A stretch of 64,000 nt of DNA. Origin: Sediminibacterium sp. Lineage in GTDB: Bacteria > Bacteroidota > Bacteroidia > B-17B0 > Aurantibacillaceae. The notes under the pieces are model-generated. The model made no database searches, had not been told where the DNA came from, and worked only from the letters and a program-made list of their open reading frames with translations. Both the position numbers and the translations under genes were made by a program. The stretch is from NCBI GenBank assembly GCA_030054095.1, contig JASGCO010000002.1, forward strand, positions 62,001-126,000, in the 5' to 3' direction. Below, in pieces: positions 3,951 through 19,993 of this stretch. Each line of letters opens with the position of its first letter. Position 1 is the stretch's first letter.

Positions 3951-5555
3951 TTAATCTACATTATCGTGCAGAAACGAGTTATTTGGGCGTATCTCGATTT
4001 TTTTATCATCTGATTCGCTGAGTGTATAGCGTGATACATTGGATTCTGTGCTTGGATTTTTACTTTCAAGCGAAATGTTCTTACGTGCAAAAGCGGTTGT
4101 TTTTTCCAATTCCGCTAATCCTTCAGGGCTCTTCATCTTCAGGGTAATTTCCTTCAGTTTACGGATACGTTCCTGAGCCAGACGAATCTGTTCTTCACGC
4201 GATACTGCCTCATTCGCATCTTCTACAACAGGTGTTGAGGTATTCTGAACAGAAATAACATCAGGTGCTGAACTCTCTTCCTTTTTATTCACTGGTTCAT
4301 CAAACGATTGAACGGTGGTAATTGTAAATTCTACATTAACCGGCGTATCATTAGCAACAGGTGTATTTACTTCATTTAACGGCTCCTGTTTTAAAACAGG
4401 CTGCTCGGATAAAACAACATTGTGTTTAGCCTCAGGTGCATCCTGCGTTTCATTCTTAACATATACAAAAGGTTCAGCTTTCTGTATCTCGTCAATAATA
4501 TTTGTTTGTTTTACTTCCGGCTTAACTTCTTCCCTCTTCTCATCAAGACTTACCACCTTACGTTCTTTAAACGCTGGTGCTTCATACCCACTGTTACGGC
4601 TATTGAATCCGGTGGCAATAATAGTGACACTTACGCTATCTCCCAAACTGGCATCTGTGCCATACCCTGTAATTAATTCGGCTGTTCCGCCCGATGCTTC
4701 CTGAATATAATCTGTTATCTCACCAAACTCATCCATGTCAATATCATCGCTACCACTCATAATATTGAGTAATACATGACGGGCACCAGTAATATCGTTA
4801 TCGTTTAGCAATGGTGAATTCAATGCCTGCTCAACAGCGCGTAAAGCACGTCGTTCACCGCTGGCCATTGCACTTCCCATAATAGCTACTCCGCTATCCT
4901 TCATTACAGTTTTCACATCATTAAAATCCACATTAATGTGCATGTGTAAACTAATGATTTCGGCTATGCTTTTTGCTGCACTGCTCAGTACATCATCCGC
5001 ATGTGCAAACGCTTCACTCATTTTCAGGTTACCGTAAATTTCACGAAGTTTATCGTTACCTATTACCAATAAGGTGTCAACGTATTTCTTCATTTCCTCC
5101 AGACCTGCCTCGGCCTGAACACGGCGTTTTTTGCCTTCAAAAGCAAACGGTATAGTAACGATACCAACGGTCAGAATTCCCAATTCACGGGCAACACTGG
5201 CAATTACCGGAGCGGCTCCCGTTCCGGTTCCCCCTCCTAACCCAGCTGTTATAAACACCATTTGGGTATTATCACTCAGATAACGTTTTATTTCATCAAG
5301 ACTCTCCAACGCTGAATCGCGACCAACATCGGGAATGGATCCTGCACCCAAACCCTTGGTCAGTGCTCCACCCAATTGAATTTTATATGGTACAGGGCTC
5401 TTTTCAAGTGCCTGTTTATCGGTATTGCAGATCACGAAATCAACACCTTTGATTCCTAAACGGAACATGTAGTTAACGGCGTTACTTCCGCCGCCACCTA
5501 CGCCAATCACTTTAATGATTGAGCCTTCTTCTTGAGGTAATTCGAATTGCATCAT
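3951..5555 (-). CDS. ftsZ: Cell division protein FtsZ
   Basis: Tubulin-like GTPase that polymerises at midcell into the Z-ring and recruits the divisome. The 534-residue protein has the GTP-binding G-box GGGTGTG at 107-113, an N-terminal GGGGSN nucleotide loop at 20-25 and the T7 synergy loop NVDFND near 208-213. The globular part ends near 320. It is followed by a long charged, probably disordered linker and a C-terminal tail ending [10 protein letters not shown], which differs from the proteobacterial FtsA/ZipA-binding peptide but fits Bacteroidota FtsZ as I recall them. Two ATGs in tandem (5555 and 5552) make the exact start ambiguous by one codon. It is the last gene of the dcw cluster, 39 bases after ftsA. 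Confidence 0.98.
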
Positions 5556-5594
5556 GATTTTTATTTTTGTGTTGTTCGGTTTTTATTTTTTTAA

Positions 5595-6962
5595 TTATTC
5601 AATATCATCACTCATCCAGTCCTTTGCACGTGTAATAAGCGTATCAAAAAAACTACCTATTTTTTTCTGTGAATGATTACTTACTTCTTTTTCCTTTTTC
5701 TTTTCTTTTGCGGGTTCCGTAGTACTTACAACAACATCTTCCTCTACTTTAATACTATTGGAGGTGGCACTCATACGACGCATATCACGTTCGTACTTCT
5801 CGATTCCCTTCATAACCAATCCAATACCTGTAGCGTACAACGGATTCTTAAGCTCATCGTCACTTGTTGCCAAATGTTCATTTGGTGTGCCAATACGACA
5901 GTCCATACCAATATTCAACATTACCAACTGAGGCAAATGCTTTAACATAGCGCCCCCTCCGGTTATTACAATACCAGCCGATAATTTTTTCTCGTAACCA
6001 CTGTTTTTAATCTCAAACAAAACAAATTCGAGAATTTCCTCCATACGGGCCTGAATAATCTGCGCCAGAAATTTTACAGAAATCTCTTTATGAGGGCGCC
6101 CACGCAAACCAGGTATGGAAATAATCTCATTCTCCTGATTTTCCTGAGCCAGAGCAGAACCAAAACGTAATTTCAACTGTTCCGCTTGTGTTTTAATGAT
6201 ACCACAACCTTCCTTGATGTCTTCAGTAATAATATTTCCCCCAAAAGGAATAACTGCCGTATGGCGGATAATGTTATCATAGAAAATGGCTACATCTGTT
6301 GTACCACCACCTATATCTACCAATACTACACCTGCCTCTTTCTCATCATCACTCAAAACCGCATCGGCACTGGCTAATGGTTCCAAATGCAAATCCACTG
6401 TTTCAAGTCCGGATCGGCTCACACATTTGAATATGTTTTTTACTGAACCTACCTGCCCTGTAATGATATGAAAATTTCCTTCCAGACGAATACCCGCATG
6501 CCCGATTGGATTTTTAATACCGCTTTCGTTATCTATAATATACTCCTGCGGAATGACATGAATAATCTCTTCTCCCGGACTCATCACCAAACGGTGCATA
6601 TTATCAATTAACTGATCTATATCTCTTTGAGATACTTCATCATCCAGAGATTGACGGGTAATCATACCTCTGTGCTGCATACTTTTAATATGTTGACCAG
6701 CAATTCCTACAATTACTTCCCCTATATCTACATTTGCCTTATCGGATGCAATAGCCATCGCTGTTTTAATAGAGGCTACCGTTTGTTCAATATTAGCAAC
6801 TACCCCCCGGTGTACACCTAAAGATTCGGTGCGGCCAATACCCAATATTTCCACTTTCCCAAATTCATTACGGCGCCCTACTATGGCGGCAATCTTAGTG
6901 GTTCCAATATCCAGTCCTACTACCAGATCAGAAGCTAAACTATGTTTTGCGTTATTATCCAT
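5595..6962 (-). CDS. ftsA: Cell division protein FtsA
   Basis: Actin-like ATPase that ties FtsZ filaments to the inner membrane and recruits later divisome proteins. The 455-residue protein shows the phosphate-1 loop GLDIGTTKIA near residue 16, the SHS2 (1C) subdomain, and phosphate-2 DIGGGTTDVA near 217. A C-terminal amphipathic helix (KIGSFFDTLITRAKDWM) would serve as the membrane anchor. A charged Lys/Glu stretch separates the helix from the core. It is five bases from ftsQ and 39 from ftsZ, the conserved ftsQAZ order. Confidence 0.98.
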   Translation of the reverse strand: MDNNAKHSLASDLVVGLDIGTTKIAAIVGRRNEFGKVEILGIGRTESLGVHRGVVANIEQTVASIKTAMAIASDKANVDIGEVIVGIAGQHIKSMQHRGMITRQSLDDEVSQRDIDQLIDNMHRLVMSPGEEIIHVIPQEYIIDNESGIKNPIGHAGIRLEGNFHIITGQVGSVKNIFKCVSRSGLETVDLHLEPLASADAVLSDDEKEAGVVLVDIGGGTTDVAIFYDNIIRHTAVIPFGGNIITEDIKEGCGIIKTQAEQLKLRFGSALAQENQENEIISIPGLRGRPHKEISVKFLAQIIQARMEEILEFVLFEIKNSGYEKKLSAGIVITGGGAMLKHLPQLVMLNIGMDCRIGTPNEHLATSDDELKNPLYATGIGLVMKGIEKYERDMRRMSATSNSIKVEEDVVVSTTEPAKEKKKEKEVSNHSQKKIGSFFDTLITRAKDWMSDDIE

Positions 6963-6967
6963 ACACT

Positions 6968-7801
6968 TTATTTTTTTGCCTTGCTACCCGAAAGGCTTGT
7001 GCACACTACTAAATTCTTATATTTTAAATTTAACACCGAGTACTTACTCCAGTTGTTGGTCTTACTAAGCCCCTGTTTATAGAACAACTTCAGTTTATTA
7101 AGTTTTTCATCCAGATTTTCAGTATCACCCAACACTATCCGATGATTCCCAATTGCCGGAAACAACTCTAACTCCTTATCCTTATTGACAAATACCTGAT
7201 GAATCATTTGCGCAAGTAAGGTATCTCCATTAATCTTCTCCGTCACCTCCAGAACATCATCTAATAAAGACACTTCACGAAATACCTGATGCGCTTTTAT
7301 TTCATCCACTGTCATCGTATAGCGGGAGGCATACGATTCATTAATATTTCCACTAGCAATAAGTACACGCGCTGTATAATTATCACTTAATGGCATCAAC
7401 TTATGTTGACGATCTATATAATAACTCTCTCCTGTGTTCGTAACCACTCTTACAATTGGAACCCGAGGTGTTACTTTTACAGATACCTCGCCATTCATGC
7501 TACTATTTACCTCCGCATTTTCAATAGCCGGATGGGCGTTTAAGGCCTTTTCCAGTTTATATAAATCAATTTTATTAAGCGGGGTATTCAGAATTTCATC
7601 GTTCCGTTCTTTAAAATAGCCCTTTACACCGCTTTCATCTATAAACTGGTTATCTGATCCTGCCTCTACTGTAACATTTAACTGTTTAACCCTTACAGCC
7701 TTCTGCTCTTTGCTTACAAACGCCAACGAAACAGTAAGACCGGAAAGCGCAGACACCCAGGCCAGTACAATTAAAATGCGTTTATAATTTATTTTTTTCA
7801 C
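6968..7801 (-). CDS. ftsQ: Cell division protein FtsQ
   Basis: Bitopic divisome scaffold. The 277 residues comprise a short basic cytoplasmic tail, one membrane helix (about residues 8-28) and a periplasmic part with a POTRA-like region (about 38-115, including the APAIENAEV-type segment HPAIENAEVNS) followed by the FtsQ beta domain. FtsQ links early FtsA/FtsZ to FtsL and FtsI/FtsW. Sequence conservation is low, as usual for the family, and its position between murC and ftsA decides the call. It is 2 bases after murC and 5 before ftsA. Confidence 0.93.
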   Translation of the reverse strand: MKKINYKRILIVLAWVSALSGLTVSLAFVSKEQKAVRVKQLNVTVEAGSDNQFIDESGVKGYFKERNDEILNTPLNKIDLYKLEKALNAHPAIENAEVNSSMNGEVSVKVTPRVPIVRVVTNTGESYYIDRQHKLMPLSDNYTARVLIASGNINESYASRYTMTVDEIKAHQVFREVSLLDDVLEVTEKINGDTLLAQMIHQVFVNKDKELELFPAIGNHRIVLGDTENLDEKLNKLKLFYKQGLSKTNNWSKYSVLNLKYKNLVVCTSLSGSKAKK

Positions 7802-7803
7802 GG

Positions 7804-9189
7804 TTAAGCGTTAATCAGTTTTTCTAATGGTGAAACCAGTGTATCTATATCCCCTGCTCCCATTGTCAACAACAATTCCGGTGTATGGTCAGACACATAA
7901 TTCAACACCTCTTGTTTACTTAAAACCTGCTTATTGGCAAGTTTCATTTTACCTAATAACCAATCGGAAGTTATACCCTCTATTGGTTTTTCTCTTGCCG
8001 GATATATTTCCAACAAAATACACACATCTAATTCATCCAGAGCCTCTGCAAACGTATCCGCAAAATCACGGGTTCTGCTAAAAAGATGCGGTTGAAAAAT
8101 CCCTGTAAGTGTTTTCTCCGGATACAACTTTCGAACAGATTGTATGCAGGCCTTTAGTTCTTCGGGATGATGCGCGTAATCGTCTATGTACACATAGCGA
8201 TCGGTTTTTACCCGGTAATCAAATCGGCGTTTCACTCCTGTAAAAGAACGTAAGGCGGCTTTTATCTGCTCACCTTTTACACCAAGCTGCTGCGTTATGC
8301 ACACGGCAGCAATAGCATTTTCAATATTATGTATGCCCGGCAAACCGTTCACCACACCATGTACCGGCTCTATCGGGCTTTTAATATTGTAGGTAAACTG
8401 CTCGTTTTCTATTGCTATAGAATCGGCACAGTATTCCGTATTTAAATTTAGCGAGTAGATCAGGCGTTTATTGGTGAGTGCCAATTCATTATCAACATTT
8501 TTTTTAACAATCAGTGTACCTTCGGGTTTTACTCTTTCAGAGAACATAAAATAACTCTCTTTTACTGCGCTCTGATCGCCATATATATCGAGGTGATCGG
8601 CATCTACGCTGGTAATTAGAGCAATGTAAGGACTAAGCGTAAGAAACGAACGATCGTACTCATCTGCCTCAACTACCACAAACGCATCCGGATCATTTGG
8701 ATTTCCTAACAATAAGTTTGTATTGTAATTTTTAGAAATTCCACCCATAAAGGCGTAGCAGTTAATTCCCGCGCTCTTTAGAATATGCGTTACCAGTGTT
8801 GTTGTGGTTGTTTTACCATGCGTTCCGGCAATAGCGATGGTTTTATATGCCGCTGTAATAGCGCCCAGTACCTGAGAACGTTTCTGCAAAATGTACTCTG
8901 ACGCAGATACCAAATAAAGGTACTCCGTGTGTTCTTTAGGAATAGCTGGCGTATAAACCACCAATACCTCTTCGGGCTTAAACCGTTGCAATAACTCCTT
9001 TAAACGACTGACATCCTCATTAAAATAACAGACAATGCCTTCTTCCTGAAGTTGACCGGTAAGAGCTGTAGCGGTCTTATCGTAGCCACACACTTCTTTG
9101 CCATGATGTTTAAAAAATCTGGCTAAGGCACTCATACCGATACCACCAATGCCCAGAAAATAATATAATTTGTAATTCAGAATTGTCAT
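7804..9189 (-). CDS. murC: UDP-N-acetylmuramate--L-alanine ligase MurC
   Basis: Cytoplasmic ATP-dependent ligase that adds L-alanine to UDP-MurNAc, the first amino acid of the peptidoglycan stem peptide. The 461-residue protein has the N-terminal UDP-binding glycine motif FLGIGGIGMS (about 12-21), the ATP-binding loop AGTHGKTTTT and the Mur signature Asn/His segments. The start ATG overlaps the murG stop as ATGA. Full family length with no anomalies. Confidence 0.98.
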   Translation of the reverse strand: MTILNYKLYYFLGIGGIGMSALARFFKHHGKEVCGYDKTATALTGQLQEEGIVCYFNEDVSRLKELLQRFKPEEVLVVYTPAIPKEHTEYLYLVSASEYILQKRSQVLGAITAAYKTIAIAGTHGKTTTTTLVTHILKSAGINCYAFMGGISKNYNTNLLLGNPNDPDAFVVVEADEYDRSFLTLSPYIALITSVDADHLDIYGDQSAVKESYFMFSERVKPEGTLIVKKNVDNELALTNKRLIYSLNLNTEYCADSIAIENEQFTYNIKSPIEPVHGVVNGLPGIHNIENAIAAVCITQQLGVKGEQIKAALRSFTGVKRRFDYRVKTDRYVYIDDYAHHPEELKACIQSVRKLYPEKTLTGIFQPHLFSRTRDFADTFAEALDELDVCILLEIYPAREKPIEGITSDWLLGKMKLANKQVLSKQEVLNYVSDHTPELLLTMGAGDIDTLVSPLEKLINA

Positions 9190-10298
9190 ACCCCCGTATA
9201 ATTTGCCAGCTTTAACACTTCGTTTGCTATTATGTTGGCGGAATCAGGATAAGCCAATAAACGGATATTTGCCCGTAACTTAGCCAAGCTCGCCTCATCT
9301 CTCACCAGACGGATGGCTTCCGCAACTAGTTTTTCAGACGCTTCTGTATCTTTTATCAGCAAGGTAGCTGCCTTGTTCACCAGCGCCATCGCATTTTTTG
9401 TTTGATGATCTTCCGCTACATTCGGAGATGGTACCAGAATACAAGCCTTATGGCTATTGCATAACTCTGTTACCGAACTGGCTCCCGCTCTGGATATAAC
9501 CAGATCGGCAGCTGCGTAAGCCATATCCATTCGTTGTATAAACGCGGAAGCCTTCAGTAATTCGCTATTCTGTTGCTGAACCTGAAGTATTGCTCTATCC
9601 GTATATCCTTTCCCTGTTTGCCATATCAACTGAATACCTGCTTCTTTAAACTTATCCAGTCCACTTCCAATAGCCTCATTAATAGTGCGCGCACCAAGAC
9701 TACCGCCGATAACCAGTATCGTTTTTAAATCTTCCCTTAATCCAAAAAACCGCATTGCCTCGCCCCGTTTCCCTTCTAATCCCTGAATATCCTGGCGCAC
9801 CGGATTACCAGTTAATAGTATTTTCTCTTTTGGGAAAAAAACGTCCATTCCTTCGTAGCCGACACAAATACGATTAACTTTCTTTGCCAGTAATTTATTG
9901 GTAATACCCGCGTACCCATTCTGCTCCTGAATAAGTGTAGGTATATTCATGGCTGTTGCCGCCTTCAAAACCGGCCCGCTTGCATAGCCACCTGTACCTA
10001 CTACCACATGGGGTTTAAACGCCTTTATAATACGACGCGTTTGCAGTAAACTTTTTATAATGAGAAACGGCAGTTTCAGATTTTCCAATGTAAACTTACG
10101 TTGCAATCCTGCAATGGGTACACCAATTATTTTATACCCTGCTGCCGGCACTTTCTCCATTTCCATTCGCCCTAAAGCGCCTACAAAAAGGAATTCGGCA
10201 TGGGGCACCAGTTGCTTTATTTCATTAGCAATGGCAATTGCCGGAAAAATATGTCCACCGGTGCCTCCACCGCTTAATATGATTCGTAAAGGTTTCAC
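9186..10298 (-). CDS. murG: UDP-GlcNAc--lipid I GlcNAc transferase MurG
   Basis: Membrane-associated GT-B glycosyltransferase that converts lipid I to lipid II. The 370-residue protein has the N-terminal glycine loop SGGGTGGHIFPAIA (about 9-22), a second GTGGYASGP loop near 101-109, and the UDP-GlcNAc-binding RAGASSVTEL motif near 274-283. It overlaps murC by four bases (ATGA) and follows ftsW by 11 bases, so flippase-side and precursor steps are translated together. Confidence 0.98.
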   Translation of the reverse strand: MKPLRIILSGGGTGGHIFPAIAIANEIKQLVPHAEFLFVGALGRMEMEKVPAAGYKIIGVPIAGLQRKFTLENLKLPFLIIKSLLQTRRIIKAFKPHVVVGTGGYASGPVLKAATAMNIPTLIQEQNGYAGITNKLLAKKVNRICVGYEGMDVFFPKEKILLTGNPVRQDIQGLEGKRGEAMRFFGLREDLKTILVIGGSLGARTINEAIGSGLDKFKEAGIQLIWQTGKGYTDRAILQVQQQNSELLKASAFIQRMDMAYAAADLVISRAGASSVTELCNSHKACILVPSPNVAEDHQTKNAMALVNKAATLLIKDTEASEKLVAEAIRLVRDEASLAKLRANIRLLAYPDSANIIANEVLKLANYTGV

Positions 10299-10309
10299 GT
10301 TCTATGCGA

Positions 10310-11458
10310 TTAAATTGTTTCCAGCTTTTCTGCTGTAGTATCTTCGTTACTTTTACTTACACTCAGGATAATGCCCATGGCCGCCATTGTAAACCAGATA
10401 GAGGTTCCACCCATACTTACCAGAGGAAGTGGCTGACCCGTTACCGGAAATAAATTTACTGCTACCGCCATATTAATCAACGCCTGAAATACCAGACTAA
10501 ATGATAAACCGATGGCGATAAATCCGCCAAATGTTTTATCTGTATCTCTAAGGATGCGGATCCCCCGGAAAAGCAAAACCATATACAGGAATAACATAAT
10601 GACACCAGTTAACAATCCATATTCCTCAATAATGATGGCATAAATAAAATCGGAAGAAGCCTGAGGCAGAAACGCTCGCTGTGTACTATTACCAGGTCCT
10701 TTTCCAATAACCCCACCATTTGCTACCGCTATTTTTGCCTGATCGCTTTGATAATTTGTTTTGGTATCACCACTGATAAAATTTTCGATACGGGCTTTCC
10801 AGGTTCTTCCGCGCGGAATCGCATCTGGAAAATTAAGTACGACCACTGTCAGCAAAATAGCAAACCCTACGCAGGCACCTATAATGTAAAGCATAAACTT
10901 CATCCGTACCCTGCCTATGAACATTAAACACAAACAGTTTACAAATAACAGAGCGGCAGTAGAAAAGTTAGCCGGTAAAATCAACGCACATATTAATCCA
11001 ATAGGTACAAGCAGTAATTTTACTACACCTTTAAATTCCTGAAGTGCATCCTGCTTAACCGTCAAAACCCTTGCCACGTAAAGCAACAGCATTATTTTAG
11101 CGATATCTGACGATTGAAACGTTAATCCTATACCCGGAATTTCAATCCAACGGCTAGCCTCACCGGCACTTACCCCACGCAATAATGTATAAAGCAATAA
11201 CGGAACCGAAAGAATAAATCCTATTTGCGCTACTTTGGCAAATACCGTGTATTTTATTTTATGAAACACATAAGCTATACCAAAACCCAGAACAATAATG
11301 ACAAAGTGTTTTATTAAATAATACTCGGAATTTCCCTGTTTGAATTTATGAGCAAGTGTTACCACTGCACTATAAACTACTAACACCGACAAAAGTGAAA
11401 GCAGCATCATTATAGCCCATATAACCTTATCTCCTTTTAAATATGCAAATAGTTTCAT
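10310..11458 (-). CDS. ftsW: Lipid II polymerase FtsW (SEDS family)
   Basis: SEDS-family peptidoglycan glycosyltransferase that works with FtsI at the septum. The 382-residue protein has about ten membrane helices and the C-terminal SEDS signature (FPVTGQPLPLVSMGGTS). It could also be labelled RodA-like, but the dcw context between the MurD-like ORF and murG makes FtsW the fitting call. It ends in a short charged cytoplasmic tail. Confidence 0.96.
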   Translation of the reverse strand: MKLFAYLKGDKVIWAIMMLLSLLSVLVVYSAVVTLAHKFKQGNSEYYLIKHFVIIVLGFGIAYVFHKIKYTVFAKVAQIGFILSVPLLLYTLLRGVSAGEASRWIEIPGIGLTFQSSDIAKIMLLLYVARVLTVKQDALQEFKGVVKLLLVPIGLICALILPANFSTAALLFVNCLCLMFIGRVRMKFMLYIIGACVGFAILLTVVVLNFPDAIPRGRTWKARIENFISGDTKTNYQSDQAKIAVANGGVIGKGPGNSTQRAFLPQASSDFIYAIIIEEYGLLTGVIMLFLYMVLLFRGIRILRDTDKTFGGFIAIGLSFSLVFQALINMAVAVNLFPVTGQPLPLVSMGGTSIWFTMAAMGIILSVSKSNEDTTAEKLETI

Positions 11459-11469
11459 TCGCTGGTATC

Positions 11470-11940
11470 CTATAATTGATTAACAAGCTCTACAAAACGG
11501 TTTCCCCGGTTTTTATAATTATCAAATGCTTCGTAACTGGGGCAAGCTGGTGAAAAAAGTACTACATCTCCATTAATCGCTACCATATTGCTTAATTCCA
11601 CCGCTTCTTTTATCGAATGCGCGCTGGTAATAAGACAGTTCTGATTCCGCATAACATTAAAAAGACGCTCCTTTTCTTTTCCCATATAGATAACCGCCTT
11701 TACTTTCTCCAGTTCCGCATTCAGCAAAAATCCATAATCTACCGTGCGGTCTTCGCCACCAATCAACAAAACAATTTTTGCCTGTAAGGTATTAATGGCA
11801 TTTACTGTTGACTTTATAGTAATGGAACGGGAATCATTTATATAAGCAACCCCCTTAAGTTCCGCCACCCATTCCATCTGGTGCGTAAACTCCGTAATAA
11901 CGGCAGGTTCTAATTCTTTATGTAAAACAGACCGGTTCAT
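11470..11940 (-). CDS. Stand-alone MurD C-terminal-domain paralogue
   Basis: A 156-residue protein matching only the C-terminal (glutamate-ligase) domain of the neighbouring MurD, aligned over about 135 residues with roughly one third identity by eye. Family landmarks are recognisable. MurD FINDSKATN becomes YINDSRSIT, GGQDKGND becomes GGEDRTVD, and SPACASFDLFQNYEDRG becomes SPACPSYEAFDNYKNRG. Both lysines in the first two motifs are arginine here, and the HRLE motif is HQME. There is no UMP-binding or ATPase domain, so it cannot act as a complete ligase. Its ATG comes one base after the murD stop, and ftsW follows 11 bases after its own stop, so it is embedded in the operon. I infer a conserved pseudoenzyme or MurD partner rather than decay. 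Function unknown. Confidence 0.88.
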   Translation of the reverse strand: MNRSVLHKELEPAVITEFTHQMEWVAELKGVAYINDSRSITIKSTVNAINTLQAKIVLLIGGEDRTVDYGFLLNAELEKVKAVIYMGKEKERLFNVMRNQNCLITSAHSIKEAVELSNMVAINGDVVLFSPACPSYEAFDNYKNRGNRFVELVNQL

Positions 11941-11941
11941 T

Positions 11942-13288
11942 TTATAATGCTCTTACAGATGCTTTAAACTGCATACCACGGTCTTCATAATTCTGGAACA
12001 GATCGAAACTGGCACAAGCCGGAGATAAGAGTACCACATCTCCCTTTTTACCTAGCTTGTACGAAGCTGCTACAGCGTCAGCCGCAGTGTCTGTTTCCAC
12101 GATCGTTTCAACAACTCCGCTAAAAGCGTTAATGATTTTCTTATTGTCTTTACCAAGACATACAATAGCCTTTACTTTGGCCTTCACTAAATCAATCAGT
12201 TCATTGTAATCATTTCCTTTGTCCTGTCCACCACAAATCCAAACTACAGGTTTTTGCATACTTTCCAGTGCATACCATGCCGAATTAACATTGGTTGCTT
12301 TGGAATCATTAATAAATTCGATTCCGTTGATAGAGGCCACAAATTCCAGGCGGTGCTCTACACCCTGAAAATCCTGAAGGCTTTCACGGATCGCTTCTTT
12401 GCGTACATCTACGATACGCGCGGCCATTGCTGCGGCCATACTGTTGTAAACATTATGTTTACCTTGCAGTGCTAATTGTTCAATTGTCATAATTAAGGGT
12501 TCTTGCTCTGGTTTATAATTAAGGGTTAACTGGTTAGAATTTAAAAACGCGCCATTACCTTCAATTGGTTGATTGATGCTGAATGGAATCAGCGTGGTAT
12601 TAATAGCACGGGATGATATATAGTTACGTATAACCTCATCATCTGCACAATACACAAAGTGGTTAGTTTTGGTTTGATTCTGCAGAATACGGAACTTAGA
12701 AGCCACGTAGTTTTCAAATTTATAATCATAACGATCCAGATGATCGGGTGTTATATTCAGTAACACAGCCACATCTGCTCTGAATTGAAACATGCCGTCT
12801 AACTGAAAACTGCTCAACTCAAGTACATAATAATCGTATTGTTCTGTAGCCACCTGATAAGCAAAGCTTTTACCAACATTACCAGCTAATCCGACATTAT
12901 ACCCCGCATTTTTAAGAATATGATAGGTTAACAGGGTTGTTGTTGTTTTACCATTTGAGCCGGTAATACAAATAGTTTTGGCATTTGTATATCGCCCCGC
13001 AAACTCTATCTCACTAATCACCGGAATATCTCGTTCTCTCAGTTTTACAACCAATTCCGCCTTATCGGGTATACCTGGACTTTTGACAACTTCTGTCGCA
13101 TTCAGAATCTTATCCTCAGAGTGTTGCAACTCCTCAAAAAGAATACCATGCTTCTCCAGCATGGACTTGTAGTTTTCCTTTATAGCACCTCTATCGCTTA
13201 CAAAGACGTCATAGCCCTTCTGTTGAGCGAGTATTGCACTGCCCACACCGCTTTCGCCACTTCCCAATATGACCATACGCTTATTCAT
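11942..13288 (-). CDS. murD: UDP-MurNAc-L-Ala--D-glutamate ligase MurD
   Basis: Cytoplasmic ATP-dependent ligase that adds D-glutamate to UDP-MurNAc-L-Ala. The 448-residue protein is complete. It has the N-terminal UDP-binding glycine loop LGSGESGVGSA, the ATP loop ITGSNGKTTTT, the central LSSFQLD and NITPDHLDRY motifs, and an intact C-terminal domain with NDSKATN, GGQDKGND and SPACASFDLFQNYEDRG. Its start overlaps the mraY stop by one base (TAATG). The gene directly downstream duplicates only its last domain. Confidence 0.98.
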   Translation of the reverse strand: MNKRMVILGSGESGVGSAILAQQKGYDVFVSDRGAIKENYKSMLEKHGILFEELQHSEDKILNATEVVKSPGIPDKAELVVKLRERDIPVISEIEFAGRYTNAKTICITGSNGKTTTTLLTYHILKNAGYNVGLAGNVGKSFAYQVATEQYDYYVLELSSFQLDGMFQFRADVAVLLNITPDHLDRYDYKFENYVASKFRILQNQTKTNHFVYCADDEVIRNYISSRAINTTLIPFSINQPIEGNGAFLNSNQLTLNYKPEQEPLIMTIEQLALQGKHNVYNSMAAAMAARIVDVRKEAIRESLQDFQGVEHRLEFVASINGIEFINDSKATNVNSAWYALESMQKPVVWICGGQDKGNDYNELIDLVKAKVKAIVCLGKDNKKIINAFSGVVETIVETDTAADAVAASYKLGKKGDVVLLSPACASFDLFQNYEDRGMQFKASVRAL

Positions 13289-14553
13289 TACCTGAGCTTC
13301 AGTGTTACAAATGTTAATACCGCCAGCATGATGCCAATGATTAAAAAGCGCATCACTATTTTTGATTCATGAAAACCTGATTTTTGATAATGGTGATGAA
13401 GCGGTGCCATTTTAAACAAACGGTTATTTTGCGCGTACTCCAATCCACGGCGCTTCTTCTGATATTTAAAATAATATACCTGCATAATCACCGATAGATT
13501 CTCCACAAGAAATACACCACATAAAATCGGAATCAGTAATTCTTTACGGATGGCGATAGCAAATACCGCAATGATACCGCCTATGGCCAAACTTCCCGTA
13601 TCACCCATAAACACCTGAGCTGGGAATGAATTGTACCATAAAAATCCGATACAGGCTCCAATGAAAGCAGCAATAAATACCACCAGTTCGCCCGTATGCG
13701 GTATGTACATAATGTTAAGATAATCGGCAAACACCATATTACCACTTACATACGCGAAGATGCCCAGAACAACACCTATTATGGCACTTGTACCGGCTGC
13801 CAACCCATCAATACCATCCGTAATATTGGCGCCATTTGAAACCGCTGCTACCACAATAATAACCATGGGGATAAAAATTAACCAACCGTATTTCATGCAA
13901 TCGTCACAGGCCCATGAGATAAATTTGGCGTAATCTAATTCATTGTTCTTTACAAACGGAATGGTTGTTTTAAGTGTCTTAACCGGATTTTCCGCATACT
14001 TAGGAATTTTCAAATCGGTTTGCTGATTAGGGTTATTAATTGCCCAACTTGTTTTGGCGTTCGAATCTAACCGTTCTTTAATTACCACATCCGGATGCCA
14101 GTAAAGTACACAACCAACAATTAAACCAATACCAACCTGACCGATAATTTTAAACTTTCCCTGTAAACCTTCTTTATTCTTTTTAAACACTTTTATATAA
14201 TCGTCCAGAAATCCTAGGCCACCTAACCAAATGGTAGAAATCACCATCAGAATGATATAAACGTTTAGCACCTTAGAAAACAATAAAGTTGGTATGAGAA
14301 TAGCGGCAATTATTATTAAACCGCCCATTGTAGGCGTTCCCGCTTTTTTGGTTTGTCCTTCCAGTCCCAGTTCGCGAATGGTTTCACCAATTTGCTTACG
14401 GCGTATAAACTCGATGATGCGTTTACCGTAAACCATGGAAATGAGAAGCGACACAATCAGTGCCAGCGCCGCACGGAACGAAATATACTGAAACGCTCCG
14501 GCTCCGGGTATATTGAATAAACGATCGAGATATGTAATTAAATAATACAACAT
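13288..14553 (-). CDS. mraY: Phospho-MurNAc-pentapeptide translocase MraY
   Basis: Polytopic enzyme that moves phospho-MurNAc-pentapeptide onto undecaprenyl phosphate to make lipid I. The 421-residue protein has the signatures [25 protein letters not shown] and FMGDTGSLA, plus the C-terminal HHHYQ motif. It is about 60 residues longer than the E. coli enzyme because of a polar insertion (about residues 155-225) in the first half, a feature I associate with Bacteroidota MraY. It overlaps murD by one base and lies 3 bases after murE. Confidence 0.98.
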
Positions 14554-14556
14554 AAT

Positions 14557-16020
14557 TTATATACCCAGTGTCTGAAAGGTTTCTTTTAAAATTTCGAAAT
14601 CATCGAACGGATGTTTTATCCCTTTAATCTCCTGGTACTTTTCGTGCCCTTTACCCGCAATAAGAATAATATCACCCTTTGCTGCTAAGGCACAAGCCGT
14701 TTTAATTGCTTCACGGCGATCGCTGATCCGTAAGGTCTTTTTCATATCTGCAGGCGATATGCCTTTTTGCATCTGGTTTAGAATTTCTTCCGGATCCTCA
14801 CTACGCGGATTGTCAGACGTAAGAACAACCCGGTTACTGTATTCGCAGGCAATAGCCGCCATTACCGGACGCTTTGCCGCATCGCGATCACCGCCACACC
14901 CTACCAGTGTTATTACCTGTTCGTTACCGTTACGTATATCTTTAATCGTATCCAGCACATTTTTTAAAGCATCCGGAGTATGCGCGTAATCCACAATACC
15001 GATGATCCCATTTGGTGATTTAAGGTATTGAAAACGTCCTTCTACAGAATTAAGATTGCTTAACGCTGTCAGTACATTCGTTTTATCCTGTTTCAGTAAA
15101 ATGGCCGCAGCATAAACTGCCAGAACATTGTAAGCGTTAAACGTTCCGATGAGCTTCACCCATAATTCCTGATTATCAATATTCAGTAATAGTCCGTTTA
15201 AATGATTTTCAATGATCCGGCATTTAAAATCGGCTACTCCTTGTAAACTGTAGGTGTGACGTTGTGCTTTTGTATTCTGCAACATGATCATTCCATTTCG
15301 GTCATCGCGGTTTACAACCGCAAAAGCACCTGTTGGTAAAGCATCAAAAAAGCCTTTTTTCGCTTTTATGTATTCATCAAAGGTATTATGATAATCCAAA
15401 TGATCGTGTGTGATATTCGAAAAAATAGCCCCTGTGAATTGCAATCCGGCGATACGATGTTGCGCCACCGCATGAGAACTTACTTCCATAAACGCGTACT
15501 CACATCCTAATTCCACCATCTTAGCTAACAACTCGTTAAGCGCCAAGGCGTCTGGTGTTGTATGCGTAGAAGGGATTACCGTATTGTTTATTTTATTCTG
15601 AACGGTTGACAGTAAACCCACAGAATATCCCAAAGAACGAAATAGATTAAACAATAAGGTAACAGTGGTTGTTTTTCCATTAGTTCCGGTTATTCCTACC
15701 AATTTTAATTTTGAAGAAGGATTGTCGTAAAAGTTACACGCCATTAAACCTAATGCATACGCTGTATCACTTACTTTTACATACGTTACCAGTTCATTCT
15801 TTTGTTCCGGCATGTCTTCGCAAACAATGGTATTGGCCCCCGCCTCGATGGCTTTTTCTATGAATGCATGTCCATCTACGGTTGTGCCACGGGTAGCTAC
15901 AAATACGCTGTCTTTTTTCACTTTACGTGAATCAAACGCAACGGCAGACACTGCCATGTGCGTGCTTCCAACCACCTCTTCGAGGCGAACTTTGTATAAT
16001 ATGTCGCTTAATAATTTCAT
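14557..16020 (-). CDS. murE: UDP-MurNAc-tripeptide synthetase MurE (meso-DAP type)
   Basis: ATP-dependent ligase adding the third stem-peptide residue. The 487-residue protein has the ATP loop GITGTNGKTTT and, in the C-terminal domain, the DNPR motif (TSDNPRSEDP) that marks meso-diaminopimelate specificity in MurE, as opposed to lysine. This points to DAP-type peptidoglycan. The start abuts the ftsI stop with no intervening base. Confidence 0.98.
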   Translation of the reverse strand: MKLLSDILYKVRLEEVVGSTHMAVSAVAFDSRKVKKDSVFVATRGTTVDGHAFIEKAIEAGANTIVCEDMPEQKNELVTYVKVSDTAYALGLMACNFYDNPSSKLKLVGITGTNGKTTTVTLLFNLFRSLGYSVGLLSTVQNKINNTVIPSTHTTPDALALNELLAKMVELGCEYAFMEVSSHAVAQHRIAGLQFTGAIFSNITHDHLDYHNTFDEYIKAKKGFFDALPTGAFAVVNRDDRNGMIMLQNTKAQRHTYSLQGVADFKCRIIENHLNGLLLNIDNQELWVKLIGTFNAYNVLAVYAAAILLKQDKTNVLTALSNLNSVEGRFQYLKSPNGIIGIVDYAHTPDALKNVLDTIKDIRNGNEQVITLVGCGGDRDAAKRPVMAAIACEYSNRVVLTSDNPRSEDPEEILNQMQKGISPADMKKTLRISDRREAIKTACALAAKGDIILIAGKGHEKYQEIKGIKHPFDDFEILKETFQTLGI

Positions 16021-18150
16021 TTACGAACTAAGCACTAATTCTATTTTTTCTCCTTTTGTAAACTTTTGCCCGGCTTCCTTGCTTTGTTTTTTCACCGACC
16101 CAAATCCCTGTATCTTTACATGCAGTCCATAATTTTCGAGTAAATACAAAGCGTCTTTAGCCGACATGCCTAATACATTTGGCATTACGCGCTTGCCTAA
16201 TTGTTCTTCTATTTTATGTTCCGTTAGCATTACCCGTGAACTATCGTTGCTCATCCGGCTCATATATTTTTCAGATGATGCAGGTACTTTTGCAGGAATA
16301 GCCAATTGTTCTGTAAGGTATCCCAACTCGCTGCCTTTGGTTTTGATGACATCCGGTGCTTGTGTCAGAAAATCTTTCTGATTGTTTAAAGGCTGTATAA
16401 AATCCAATCCTCCTGAATACACTTTTTCTGCAATCTCCTTAAACACCGGTCCTGAAACCAATCCACCGTAATAATCCCCTTTGGTTGGATTATTAATTAT
16501 CACAATACACGTATAAAGCGGGTTGTCTGCCGGGAAATACCCCACAAAAGAAGCCTGATAGGTTACATTTCCCTGCGACTTGTAATCGCCATTTTTCGCT
16601 ATCTGCGCGGTTCCGGTTTTACCACCAACGCGAAACGCGGTGATGTTTAAGCCTTTACCACTGCCATTCTTCACTACTCCTTCCATCATTTGTTTGGCTT
16701 TAGCGATGGTAGAGGGTTTTACAATTTTAGCGGCGATTACTTCAGGTTCAAATCTCTTTACTAAAGCGCCATTACGCCGAATTTCCTTAACAAACATGGG
16801 CTTTACCATTGTCCCATTATTGGCAATGGCATTATAAAGCGTGAGCGTGTGCAATGGCGTAACCATGCTTTCGTATCCGATACTTAACCAGGGTAGCGTT
16901 GTGCCGTACCAGTCTTTATCCTTAGGGCGTTTAATGCGTCCCGATCCTTCTCCTGGAATCGCCAGTCCCAGTTTACCATTCAAATGAAAACTGATCAGTT
17001 TGTCTGTAAACTGTCGTGGATTTTTAGAAAAGTACTTGGTAACAATTTTACTTACACCCACATTAGAAGACGTTTCAAATGCCTGTTGCACTGTAATTAC
17101 GGGTGTTTTAGGCGGATGCGCGTCACGCATACGACGATCGTAATACATACACTCACCATTACCTACCTGTATTTTTTCATCGAGGCTTACATCGTACTCA
17201 TCAAACGCTGTTAACAAGGAGGCCAACTTAAATGTAGATCCTGGTTCTGTCGGATAACCCAAAGCATAGTTCAGGTTTTCGGTGTAATTGGTAGAATCGC
17301 CACCTTTAGCCCGTGTAAGATTGGCTATGGCTTTAATTTGTCCGGTCTTCACTTCCATCAGCACCGCGCAACCATGTGAGGCCTGATTTTTAACCAGTGC
17401 TTTCAACAACGCGTGTTCCGCCACATCTTGTATGTTTATATCAATACTGGTGTACAAATCGCTTCCATCCTTAGGTTCCACTTCGTTCTCATCATTAATT
17501 GGACGCCACACATCTCCTGCAATTTTTTGCATCAGACGCTTACCACTTACACCCATTAACGTACTATCAAATGCACCTTCGAGTCCTACCGGTTTTACAC
17601 CCTGACGCGCCATACCAATAGTACGGGCAGCCAGCATCTGAAACGGACGTTCGCGCCGGTTGGTTTGCAGAGTTACTAATCCACCACGGCGGCCTTTACG
17701 AAGTATCGGAAATGTTTTTAGTGTTTGAAGATTTTTATGCGACACATTACGTTGAAGCACAATGTAACGGTCTTTTTCTCTTCGGGCTTTTACCAGCATT
17801 TTCTTATACTCGCCCGGGCTTCTATCATGAAATAAACGGCTCAACAGAAAAGACAAGGAATCTTTGTTCTCTTTAAAGAGCTTATCATCTATACTTGGGG
17901 CACAAATATCCACTCCCACTTCGTAGTACGGTAAACTGGTTGCTAATAAAGAACCATTGGCATCAAAAATATTACCGCGTACCGCTTCAATTTCAAATAC
18001 TTTGGTGGTATATGTTTCTGCCTTGTTACGCCACTCATCGCCCTGCACAAACTGAATAACACAGATGCGGTATAAAATAGCGAACGCGAAAACGCACATA
18101 AAAATGTACACCAGATACGTACGGGATAATATGTCTTTTTTATTTTCCAC
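16021..18150 (-). CDS. ftsI: Septal transpeptidase FtsI/PBP3 with C-terminal PASTA domain
   Basis: Class B penicillin-binding protein that cross-links septal peptidoglycan together with FtsW. The 709-residue protein has one N-terminal membrane helix (about 13-34), a pedestal domain, and a transpeptidase domain with the catalytic STFK at 305-308, SSN at 361-363 and KTGT at 511-514. A single PASTA domain occupies about 655-709. PASTA tails are best known from Gram-positive PBPs and kinases, but they also occur on Bacteroidota septal PBPs. It is coupled to ftsL-like (2 bases) and murE (0 bases). Confidence 0.97.
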   Translation of the reverse strand: MENKKDILSRTYLVYIFMCVFAFAILYRICVIQFVQGDEWRNKAETYTTKVFEIEAVRGNIFDANGSLLATSLPYYEVGVDICAPSIDDKLFKENKDSLSFLLSRLFHDRSPGEYKKMLVKARREKDRYIVLQRNVSHKNLQTLKTFPILRKGRRGGLVTLQTNRRERPFQMLAARTIGMARQGVKPVGLEGAFDSTLMGVSGKRLMQKIAGDVWRPINDENEVEPKDGSDLYTSIDINIQDVAEHALLKALVKNQASHGCAVLMEVKTGQIKAIANLTRAKGGDSTNYTENLNYALGYPTEPGSTFKLASLLTAFDEYDVSLDEKIQVGNGECMYYDRRMRDAHPPKTPVITVQQAFETSSNVGVSKIVTKYFSKNPRQFTDKLISFHLNGKLGLAIPGEGSGRIKRPKDKDWYGTTLPWLSIGYESMVTPLHTLTLYNAIANNGTMVKPMFVKEIRRNGALVKRFEPEVIAAKIVKPSTIAKAKQMMEGVVKNGSGKGLNITAFRVGGKTGTAQIAKNGDYKSQGNVTYQASFVGYFPADNPLYTCIVIINNPTKGDYYGGLVSGPVFKEIAEKVYSGGLDFIQPLNNQKDFLTQAPDVIKTKGSELGYLTEQLAIPAKVPASSEKYMSRMSNDSSRVMLTEHKIEEQLGKRVMPNVLGMSAKDALYLLENYGLHVKIQGFGSVKKQSKEAGQKFTKGEKIELVLSS

Positions 18151-18152
18151 GT

Positions 18153-18605
18153 TTATTTTATCACTTTGTATAATTCAGTGCTATCTACTTCTATTTTCAT
18201 GGGCGGAACCACGGGCTCTTTAAGTCCGAGACTATCTACCGCCTTTGCCACTTCGCTTTGTTTGCTGGCAAACATCAGTTCACTTTTGGTAGAAATGTAT
18301 TCGGAACGCAATTCTTTAAGCTGGTTAGACACCTTATTACTTTCACGTATGGTATCATCGGCATAATACCCATAAGCGATGTAGAGTATAGCAATGAACG
18401 CGAGAAACATGATATAAGGTACTGAACGCAGTGTTTTTTCATTGGTAAGAAACGAACCGCTGAATACGGTAGAAAGTCCCTTTGCCAATACTCCTTTTTT
18501 GTATGAGCGACGTTGAGTAGGTTCCTTTACCTCCTCTTCCTGTAGGATTTCTTCCTCGGGCAATTGTTCTTCGTTTGCCGGTATTTCTCTGTATTTATTT
18601 GCCAT
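18153..18605 (-). CDS. ftsL: FtsL-like divisome membrane protein
   Basis: Small bitopic protein, 150 residues: an acidic cytoplasmic tail rich in Glu, one membrane helix (about 64-84), then a periplasmic coiled-coil heptad region (about 86-130). This topology and its position between rsmH and ftsI are those of FtsL, which pairs with FtsB and activates FtsWI. Primary sequence is poorly conserved between phyla, so the symbol rests on synteny and topology. The N-terminal tail (about 60 residues) is longer than in E. coli. Confidence 0.85.
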   Translation of the reverse strand: MANKYREIPANEEQLPEEEILQEEEVKEPTQRRSYKKGVLAKGLSTVFSGSFLTNEKTLRSVPYIMFLAFIAILYIAYGYYADDTIRESNKVSNQLKELRSEYISTKSELMFASKQSEVAKAVDSLGLKEPVVPPMKIEVDSTELYKVIK

Positions 18606-18618
18606 TGGCGAATTTTCT

Positions 18619-19530
18619 TTATAATTTTTCCGCTACTCTTAGTTTCGCGCTGCGGGCGCGTGTATTGATTTTGATCTCTTCTTCAGAAGGCAGAATGGGT
18701 TTACCTGTGAGGTTTTTAAATACCTTTTTACTGCTACCGTAAATCACATCTTTCTCTTCCTTCCCTTCCACATTTCCGGTCTTCATCAGATTTTTCACCA
18801 AGCGGTCTTCCAAACTATGATACGACATCACCACCAACCGTCCTCCTGGCTTTAAAACCTCCACACATTGCGTTAAGCATTCCTTTAAGGCTTCCATTTC
18901 CTGATTGACCTCAATACGCAGCGCCTGAAATACACGCGCCAGATATTTATGATCATCGAAACGGGGCACACAGGTTTTAATCAGTTGCTTAAATGCGTCG
19001 GTGGTATCGAATGCCTGCGATTCGCGCCCGGTGCAAATAGTCTGCGCCAGTTTTCGCGCATTCTCCACTTCGCCATATTCCTGAAACAATTTCTGCAATT
19101 GCTGCTCAGAATATTCACGGATAATTTTTTCAGCCGTCAGATTTCCCTTTTGATTCATCCGCATATCCAGACGCCCATCGTAACGTATTGAAAATCCTCT
19201 CGAGGCTTCATCGAACTGATGAGAAGAGACTCCCAGATCTCCCAATATGCCATCTACCTGAGCTACACCTTGTAAACGAAGGTAGTTTTTCAGGTACCTG
19301 AAGTTTTGAGGAATCAACGTAAACCGTTTATCGTCTGGTACATTCCGCTGTGCATCTTCATCCTGATCAAACGCGATGAGTTTTCCACTTTCACCTAACA
19401 CAGAAAGGATCGCTTTCGAATGTCCGCCACCACCAAAGGTTAAATCCACATACGCTCCATCGGGACGGATAGTAAGCTGATCAATACAATCTTGTAAAAG
19501 AACGGGTATATGATATACGGGATTACTCAT
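18619..19530 (-). CDS. rsmH: 16S rRNA m4C1402 methyltransferase RsmH (MraW)
   Basis: S-adenosylmethionine-dependent methyltransferase that modifies C1402 of 16S rRNA. The 303-residue protein has the SAM-binding motif DLTFGGGGHS, the GDLGVSSHQFD motif and the C-terminal NTRARSAKLR. I chose the ATG at 19530 (MSNPVYHIPVLL...) because it gives the family's usual N-terminus. An open frame extends upstream to 19584 inside mraZ, but those residues are not family-like. The start overlaps the mraZ stop by 8 bases, and GGAGGGG lies just upstream. Confidence 0.96.
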   Translation of the reverse strand: MSNPVYHIPVLLQDCIDQLTIRPDGAYVDLTFGGGGHSKAILSVLGESGKLIAFDQDEDAQRNVPDDKRFTLIPQNFRYLKNYLRLQGVAQVDGILGDLGVSSHQFDEASRGFSIRYDGRLDMRMNQKGNLTAEKIIREYSEQQLQKLFQEYGEVENARKLAQTICTGRESQAFDTTDAFKQLIKTCVPRFDDHKYLARVFQALRIEVNQEMEALKECLTQCVEVLKPGGRLVVMSYHSLEDRLVKNLMKTGNVEGKEEKDVIYGSSKKVFKNLTGKPILPSEEEIKINTRARSAKLRVAEKL

Positions 19531-19993
19531 CCCCTCCATCGTTAAAATCCAGATTACCGAGTACATCCTGAGCCAACTGTTCAATATCTATATCCTGATT
19601 CAGGAATTCTTCATATAGTTTCTTATCCCAGATCTCAATCACATTGTTACTCCCCAGCACTTTTATATCACTCTTCACATCCGCGTACTCGCCCAACGAT
19701 TTGGGAATCAGAATACGTCCGGTAGAATCCGGATCACAAGATGTTGCCCCACCGGTAAACTTCCGCACAAACACATCATTGGATTTTATAAGGCGATTCA
19801 GTTTACTCAACTTTTTATTGAGTTTATCCCATTCGGTTAAAGGGTACAACACCAGACATTTTTGATGAAGATTACGATTCATCACAAATCCCTTTTCAAA
19901 CAATTCACTTAACTGCTTTTTGAGGTCAATAGGAAACATGAAACGCCCTTTAGCGTCCACTTTGCAATCATATTCCCCAATTAAACTCGTCAT
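19523..19993 (-). CDS. mraZ: Transcriptional regulator MraZ
   Basis: AbrB/SpoVT-type double-domain DNA-binding protein that controls the dcw operon it heads. The 156-residue protein shows two tandem MraZ repeats: GEYDCKVDAKGRFMFP at residues 6-21 and a second DPDSTGRILIPKSL near 87-101. Rings of this protein bind phased short direct repeats, and four such repeats lie upstream at 20031-20070. The ATG at 19993 is about 20 bases downstream of a TAnnTTTG promoter element. Confidence 0.97.
   Translation of the reverse strand: MTSLIGEYDCKVDAKGRFMFPIDLKKQLSELFEKGFVMNRNLHQKCLVLYPLTEWDKLNKKLSKLNRLIKSNDVFVRKFTGGATSCDPDSTGRILIPKSLGEYADVKSDIKVLGSNNVIEIWDKKLYEEFLNQDIDIEQLAQDVLGNLDFNDGGDE

Follow-up and report, generated by a model that had tools for sequence, protein, structure and literature searches.

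Why should a dcw operon with a complete murD also carry, between that gene and ftsW, an ORF for nothing but a MurD C-terminal domain (CTD)? The dcw operon is among the best-studied bacterial gene clusters, and one of its products, MurD, is a drug target; if the cluster has an additional component that is under selection and apparently undescribed, much of the Bacteroidia would control or assemble the Mur pathway differently. The locus lies in a window of 64,000 nucleotides from Sediminibacterium sp. (the whole stretch of DNA that was analysed), and X is used below as a working name for the 156-aa ORF at 11470-11940 and its homologues. No published description of a stand-alone MurD-CTD family was found by keyword in the open-access literature on MurD paralogues and duplications, pseudoenzymes and Mur complexes.

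The lone CTD and its operon

The features of the window on which the analysis centres are as follows.

11470..11940, minus strand: X, a stand-alone MurD CTD of 156 aa (ORF, translation, murD profile, AlphaFold, homologues)
11942..13288, minus strand: murD, complete, 448 aa, all CTD ligand residues present (ORF, murD profile)
10310..11458, minus strand: ftsW, 382 aa, immediately downstream of X (ORF; named from operon order and cross-matching of loci)
3951..19993, minus strand: the dcw operon surrounding X (ORFs; names by order, size, dcw knowledge and 80 matched loci)

The gene order in the window is mraZ, rsmH, ftsL-like, ftsI, murE, mraY, murD, X, ftsW, murG, murC, ftsQ, ftsA and ftsZ, all names except that of murD being based on the order and sizes of the genes and on matches between loci. 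X is separated from murD by 1 base and from ftsW by 11 bases, spacings that had been given in the initial annotation and were reproduced, as was the 156-aa ORF itself, whose strand had been left unstated and is the minus strand. The landmark motifs claimed for the protein are present, in the form of NDSRSIT, GGEDRTVDY and SPACPSYEAFDNY, and its co-linearity with the CTD of the adjacent MurD is borne out by a gap-free alignment with 48 of 137 positions identical (35%, E 2e-27). The adjacent MurD is complete, with every motif in place.

Against the NCBIfam murD model, X covers positions 303-440 of 441 (E 8e-35, 120.7 bits for a cut-off of 212) and nothing upstream of position 303, in agreement with the earlier statement that the UMP-binding and ATPase domains are absent. 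E. coli MurD aligns to X over residues 296-435, and the match to Pfam Mur_ligase_C (PF02875) reaches 29.9 bits, just over the cut-off of 28.4. The AlphaFold model of X (mean pLDDT 88, pTM 0.83) is ordered from about residue 20, with residues 1-16 predicted to be disordered and residues 20-156 to form the MurD CTD; its best matches among solved structures are all MurD, with a TM of about 0.8 to the MurD CTD. Membership in another protein family is ruled out, since MurD was returned by every search. X has the CTD of MurD and none of its other domains: it belongs to the PF02875 CTD fold by both profile and structure, and it falls outside the MurD ligases in having the CTD alone (156 aa) in place of three domains, and Q, D, R, I, R and S at the six ligand positions discussed below. 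As a lone CTD ORF between an intact murD and ftsW, it has the defining arrangement of the proposed stand-alone family.

Distribution, descent and selection

Homologues of X were recovered from 19 families, nearly always between murD and ftsW. In the GTDB family of the window, X lies between these two genes in 22 of 87 genomes, being present in 19 of 20 genomes of genus g10, in the one genome of genus g5 and in 2 of 40 of the window's own genus. The genomes surveyed are mostly metagenome assemblies, and many of the carriers are uncultured. Of 395 genomes drawn evenly from the Bacteroidia, about 74 (roughly a fifth), from 19 of 78 families, carry X, a count compiled from several searches, with six more genomes having a second match of unlisted coordinates. 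In family f12, X is present in all ten genomes. Outside the class, no stand-alone copy was found in a 148-genome draw of the phylum (about 110 genomes from other classes), the sole extra match being partial and at a contig start, and the loci fetched from other phyla contain a full MurD and no X. The order ftsI-murE-mraY-murD-X-ftsW-murG-murC-ftsQ-ftsA is kept in nearly all loci, with median gaps of about 13 and 16 bases between X and its two neighbours (105 locus records, certain genomes being entered twice); X-less relatives within the window's family have 5-156 bases between murD and ftsW. An intact MurD always accompanies X.

Individual loci show other arrangements. The dcw cluster of G127 (L193, L194) is broken, with murD at one locus and X-ftsW at another; two small ORFs of unknown function lie between X and ftsW in G290 (L206:4581-5307, minus strand); and two divergent tandem X copies lie between murD and ftsW in G408 (L218:5564-6641, plus strand). 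X is not followed by ftsW in G380, and G457 has a second X copy outside dcw. MraY and MurD share one 862-aa frame in G262 (L162:6517-9105, minus strand), which may be a genuine fusion or may stem from an error in sequencing, and MurC appears as two ORFs in three genomes (L038/L221, L186/L062, L226), through a real split or a frameshift error. G374 (L220:5264-7894, minus strand) has an 876-aa ORF with a MurD-like part, the usual dcw surroundings being absent. Natural X fusions naming a partner were not found among the recovered loci; among X ORFs of more than about 200 aa, most overlap murD at its end, and a start called too far upstream probably accounts for the additional residues.

Resolution is poor in the CTD tree (136 sequences, 139 columns), although the X sequences cluster in it, and the window X groups with other X with a support of 98 (31 rows). 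A single X clade was not rejected (p-AU 0.74), the constrained tree scoring higher, in a test on 139 columns that resolve poorly and from which the G380 and L209 copies had been removed beforehand. The G380 X and the non-dcw copy L209 are placed elsewhere in the CTD tree; the former (L211:5260-5862, minus strand) adjoins murD, pairs with its own MurD with a support of 99 and looks like a second, independent origin of a stand-alone CTD. With one or two exceptions, the X sequences are compatible with one ancient origin followed by losses, and the tree suggests that X may have arisen when part of murD was duplicated early in the history of the Bacteroidia, with repeated loss thereafter. In a MurD and FtsW tree of the window's family, the two X carriers are nested in their genus among X-less relatives, which implies that X was lost repeatedly (at least two losses) or re-entered. 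Horizontal gain in the window's genome is an unneeded assumption, as the relationships among X fit vertical descent with losses.

In close pairs with unsaturated synonymous change, omega is 0.01-0.17 for X and, comparably, 0.02-0.15 for MurD, the only computable pair without a low value for X being a more distant one (0.52 for X and 0.19 for MurD). Between the window and the X carrier nearest to it, dS is saturated and hence gives no omega; the two share 72% identity in X and 88% in MurD. In most families, MurD evolves more slowly than X. The recovered copies contain no stop or frameshift. X is under purifying selection. It is very improbable that X is a neutral or decaying duplicate of the 3' end of murD surviving by chance, a reading with which its patchiness in some genera (such as that of the window) and its fast evolution in most families would agree, but which is opposed by the intact frames across many families and deep time, by the low omega and by the occurrence of X throughout f12 and in nearly all of g10. 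Decay as such was rejected on the low omega together with this breadth.

Ligand residues and the putative role of X

Residue numbers are those of E. coli MurD, transferred by counting along the HMMER alignment. R302, D317 and K319 are taken here to be ATP or ligand residues of MurD. K348, T321, S415 and F422 are ligand contacts in MurD, with K348 contacting the ligand carboxylates (PMC3527612). The two Lys-to-Arg replacements that had drawn attention to the window X are real, R38 corresponding to K319 and R65 to K348, and the equivalents of T321 and R302 are Ile and Gln; the double replacement, however, holds for this genome and one close relative and not family-wide, where it is the loss of K348 that recurs. 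The K319 position carries Lys in the sister genus, and Met, Ala or Ile in other families. Retention across X is 51% for R302, 84% for D317, 67% for K319, 75% for T321, 18% for K348 (lost in 82%) and 88% for S415, and these six ligand residues are retained less than other MurD-invariant positions (Mann-Whitney p 0.0019, which is indicative as the sequences are related). Every X has H301, E304 and N316, and most have S318, S415 and the F422-equivalent (mostly Tyr). The set of residues lost varies by family. At least one of the six is missing from 75 of 85 X proteins; the MurDs beside X have all six in 76 of 77 cases, and the one that differs, in G374, is unlikely to be an ordinary MurD. The term retained pseudoenzyme, used in the initial annotation, is apt for a protein that is old and widespread, has kept its operon place and fold residues under purifying selection, and has lost ligand residues preferentially.

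Family f12 has all six ligand residues in the X of its ten genomes (L163, L166-L168, L170, L174, L177, L179-L181). Relative to the mean of four other dcw proteins, the f12 rates are 0.47x for X, 1.64x for MurD and 1.5x for FtsW, X being the slowest dcw product tested, with MurD and FtsW much faster than in other families.

The roles of the CTD and of the central, ATP-binding domain in MurD are described in PMC3527612, and a lone CTD does not ligate because the central domain is absent; with the pocket residues usually lost in addition, what is known of Mur ligases at present rules out ligation by X alone. X is a selected pseudo-domain and not an enzyme, and it probably assists or regulates. 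It would be produced along with MurD and FtsW and act by protein contact as a non-catalytic partner, the likeliest form being a decoy CTD or an accessory subunit bound to MurD (or to a Mur/FtsW assembly), and could tune or position the D-Glu-adding step. That X constitutes an old, undescribed MurD-CTD family of the Bacteroidia which serves as such a partner of MurD or of the Mur/FtsW assembly is put forward tentatively, with somewhat less than even confidence. The broader proposition, that much of the class may regulate or organise peptidoglycan precursor synthesis through a MurD-derived dcw pseudo-domain made with MurD and FtsW, comes just short of an even chance; if true, it would add a control layer at the D-Glu step that is not known in model bacteria.

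Attempts to identify the partner point in no single direction, and the two computational tests favour none of the roles suggested in the initial annotation (modulation of MurD, a link from MurD to MurG/FtsW, sensing of UDP-MurNAc-Ala-Glu) over the others. An AlphaFold model of a joined MurD-X chain from the relative L038 (17-row alignment), for which Gly was put in place of the murD stop in relatives with both genes in frame, gave a pTM of 0.61 and no confident placement. Mirror-tree analysis of co-evolution singled out no partner of X and gave no specific tie between X and MurD (partial r 0.06 without f12, negative with it); without f12, the sole remaining tie is to the fast-evolving FtsQ and is not trusted. 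The apparent avoidance of MurD and FtsW by X in the first mirror-tree run was an f12 effect, gone once this family was left out. In G127, the position of X-ftsW apart from murD fits a partner on the FtsW side at least as well as MurD. X is absent from most relatives in the window's genus, so its role must be one that can be dispensed with or filled in another way, and the natural pairs with and without X inside one genus are usable for testing.

Other roles can be envisaged for a selected CTD. X may be a scaffold or adaptor that connects the Mur enzymes of the cytoplasm with the steps at the membrane (FtsW, MurG, MraY) and leaves MurD unregulated, since it adjoins ftsW in nearly all loci and was relocated together with ftsW, away from murD, in G127; assembly of Mur enzymes on MurG in Bordetella pertussis (PMC6420597) points the same way. 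Adjacency to ftsW is, however, adjacency to murD too in all but one genome, the relocation in G127 is one event and co-evolution gave no partner, and this role appears somewhat unlikely. A ligand sensor, whose altered CTD pocket would bind an amino acid, a nucleotide or UDP-MurNAc-peptide and report the state of the pathway, would account for the presence of N316 in all X and of S318, S415 and the F422-equivalent in most, and for the complete set of six in f12, but is quite improbable given that the carboxylate contact K348 (PMC3527612) is so often lost, that the lost set differs between families, and that X has neither a central or N-terminal domain for a nucleotide or UDP sugar nor an output domain. 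Very little credence is given to X as a helper that replaces the MurD CTD in trans and creates a second, possibly different, form of the ligase: the f12 X, with all six residues and slower evolution than the f12 MurD, would suit such a role, whereas in most X proteins one or more of the required residues are missing and MurD always retains its own intact CTD.

Comparison with known systems

X, read as a non-catalytic partner derived from MurD, is closest to MurD itself (TIGR01087 / Pfam PF02875), with which it shares the fold, an alignment across the entire domain and the same dcw operon. It differs from MurD in having no N-terminal and central domains, in the absence of K348, R302 or other ligand residues from most members, in the score of the window X below the murD equivalog cut-off, and in being always extra to a full MurD. 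The lipid II isoglutaminyl synthase MurT/GatD likewise pairs a Mur-ligase-like protein with a partner, and its CTD is a weak structural match to X; MurT is catalytic and retains the ATPase domain, whereas X is a lone CTD nearest to MurD. The MurD-like enzyme of an alternative peptidoglycan pathway is reportedly full-length and catalytic. It resembles X in being a MurD relative beyond the standard pathway (PMC8788868). X differs from it in having no catalytic domain. HisZ, which acts with HisG, is a pseudoenzyme regulator encoded alongside the pathway from which it descends; it has no sequence relation to X, for which regulation is a proposal only, and the likeness is a works-like analogy, that of a dead paralogue kept beside active machinery.
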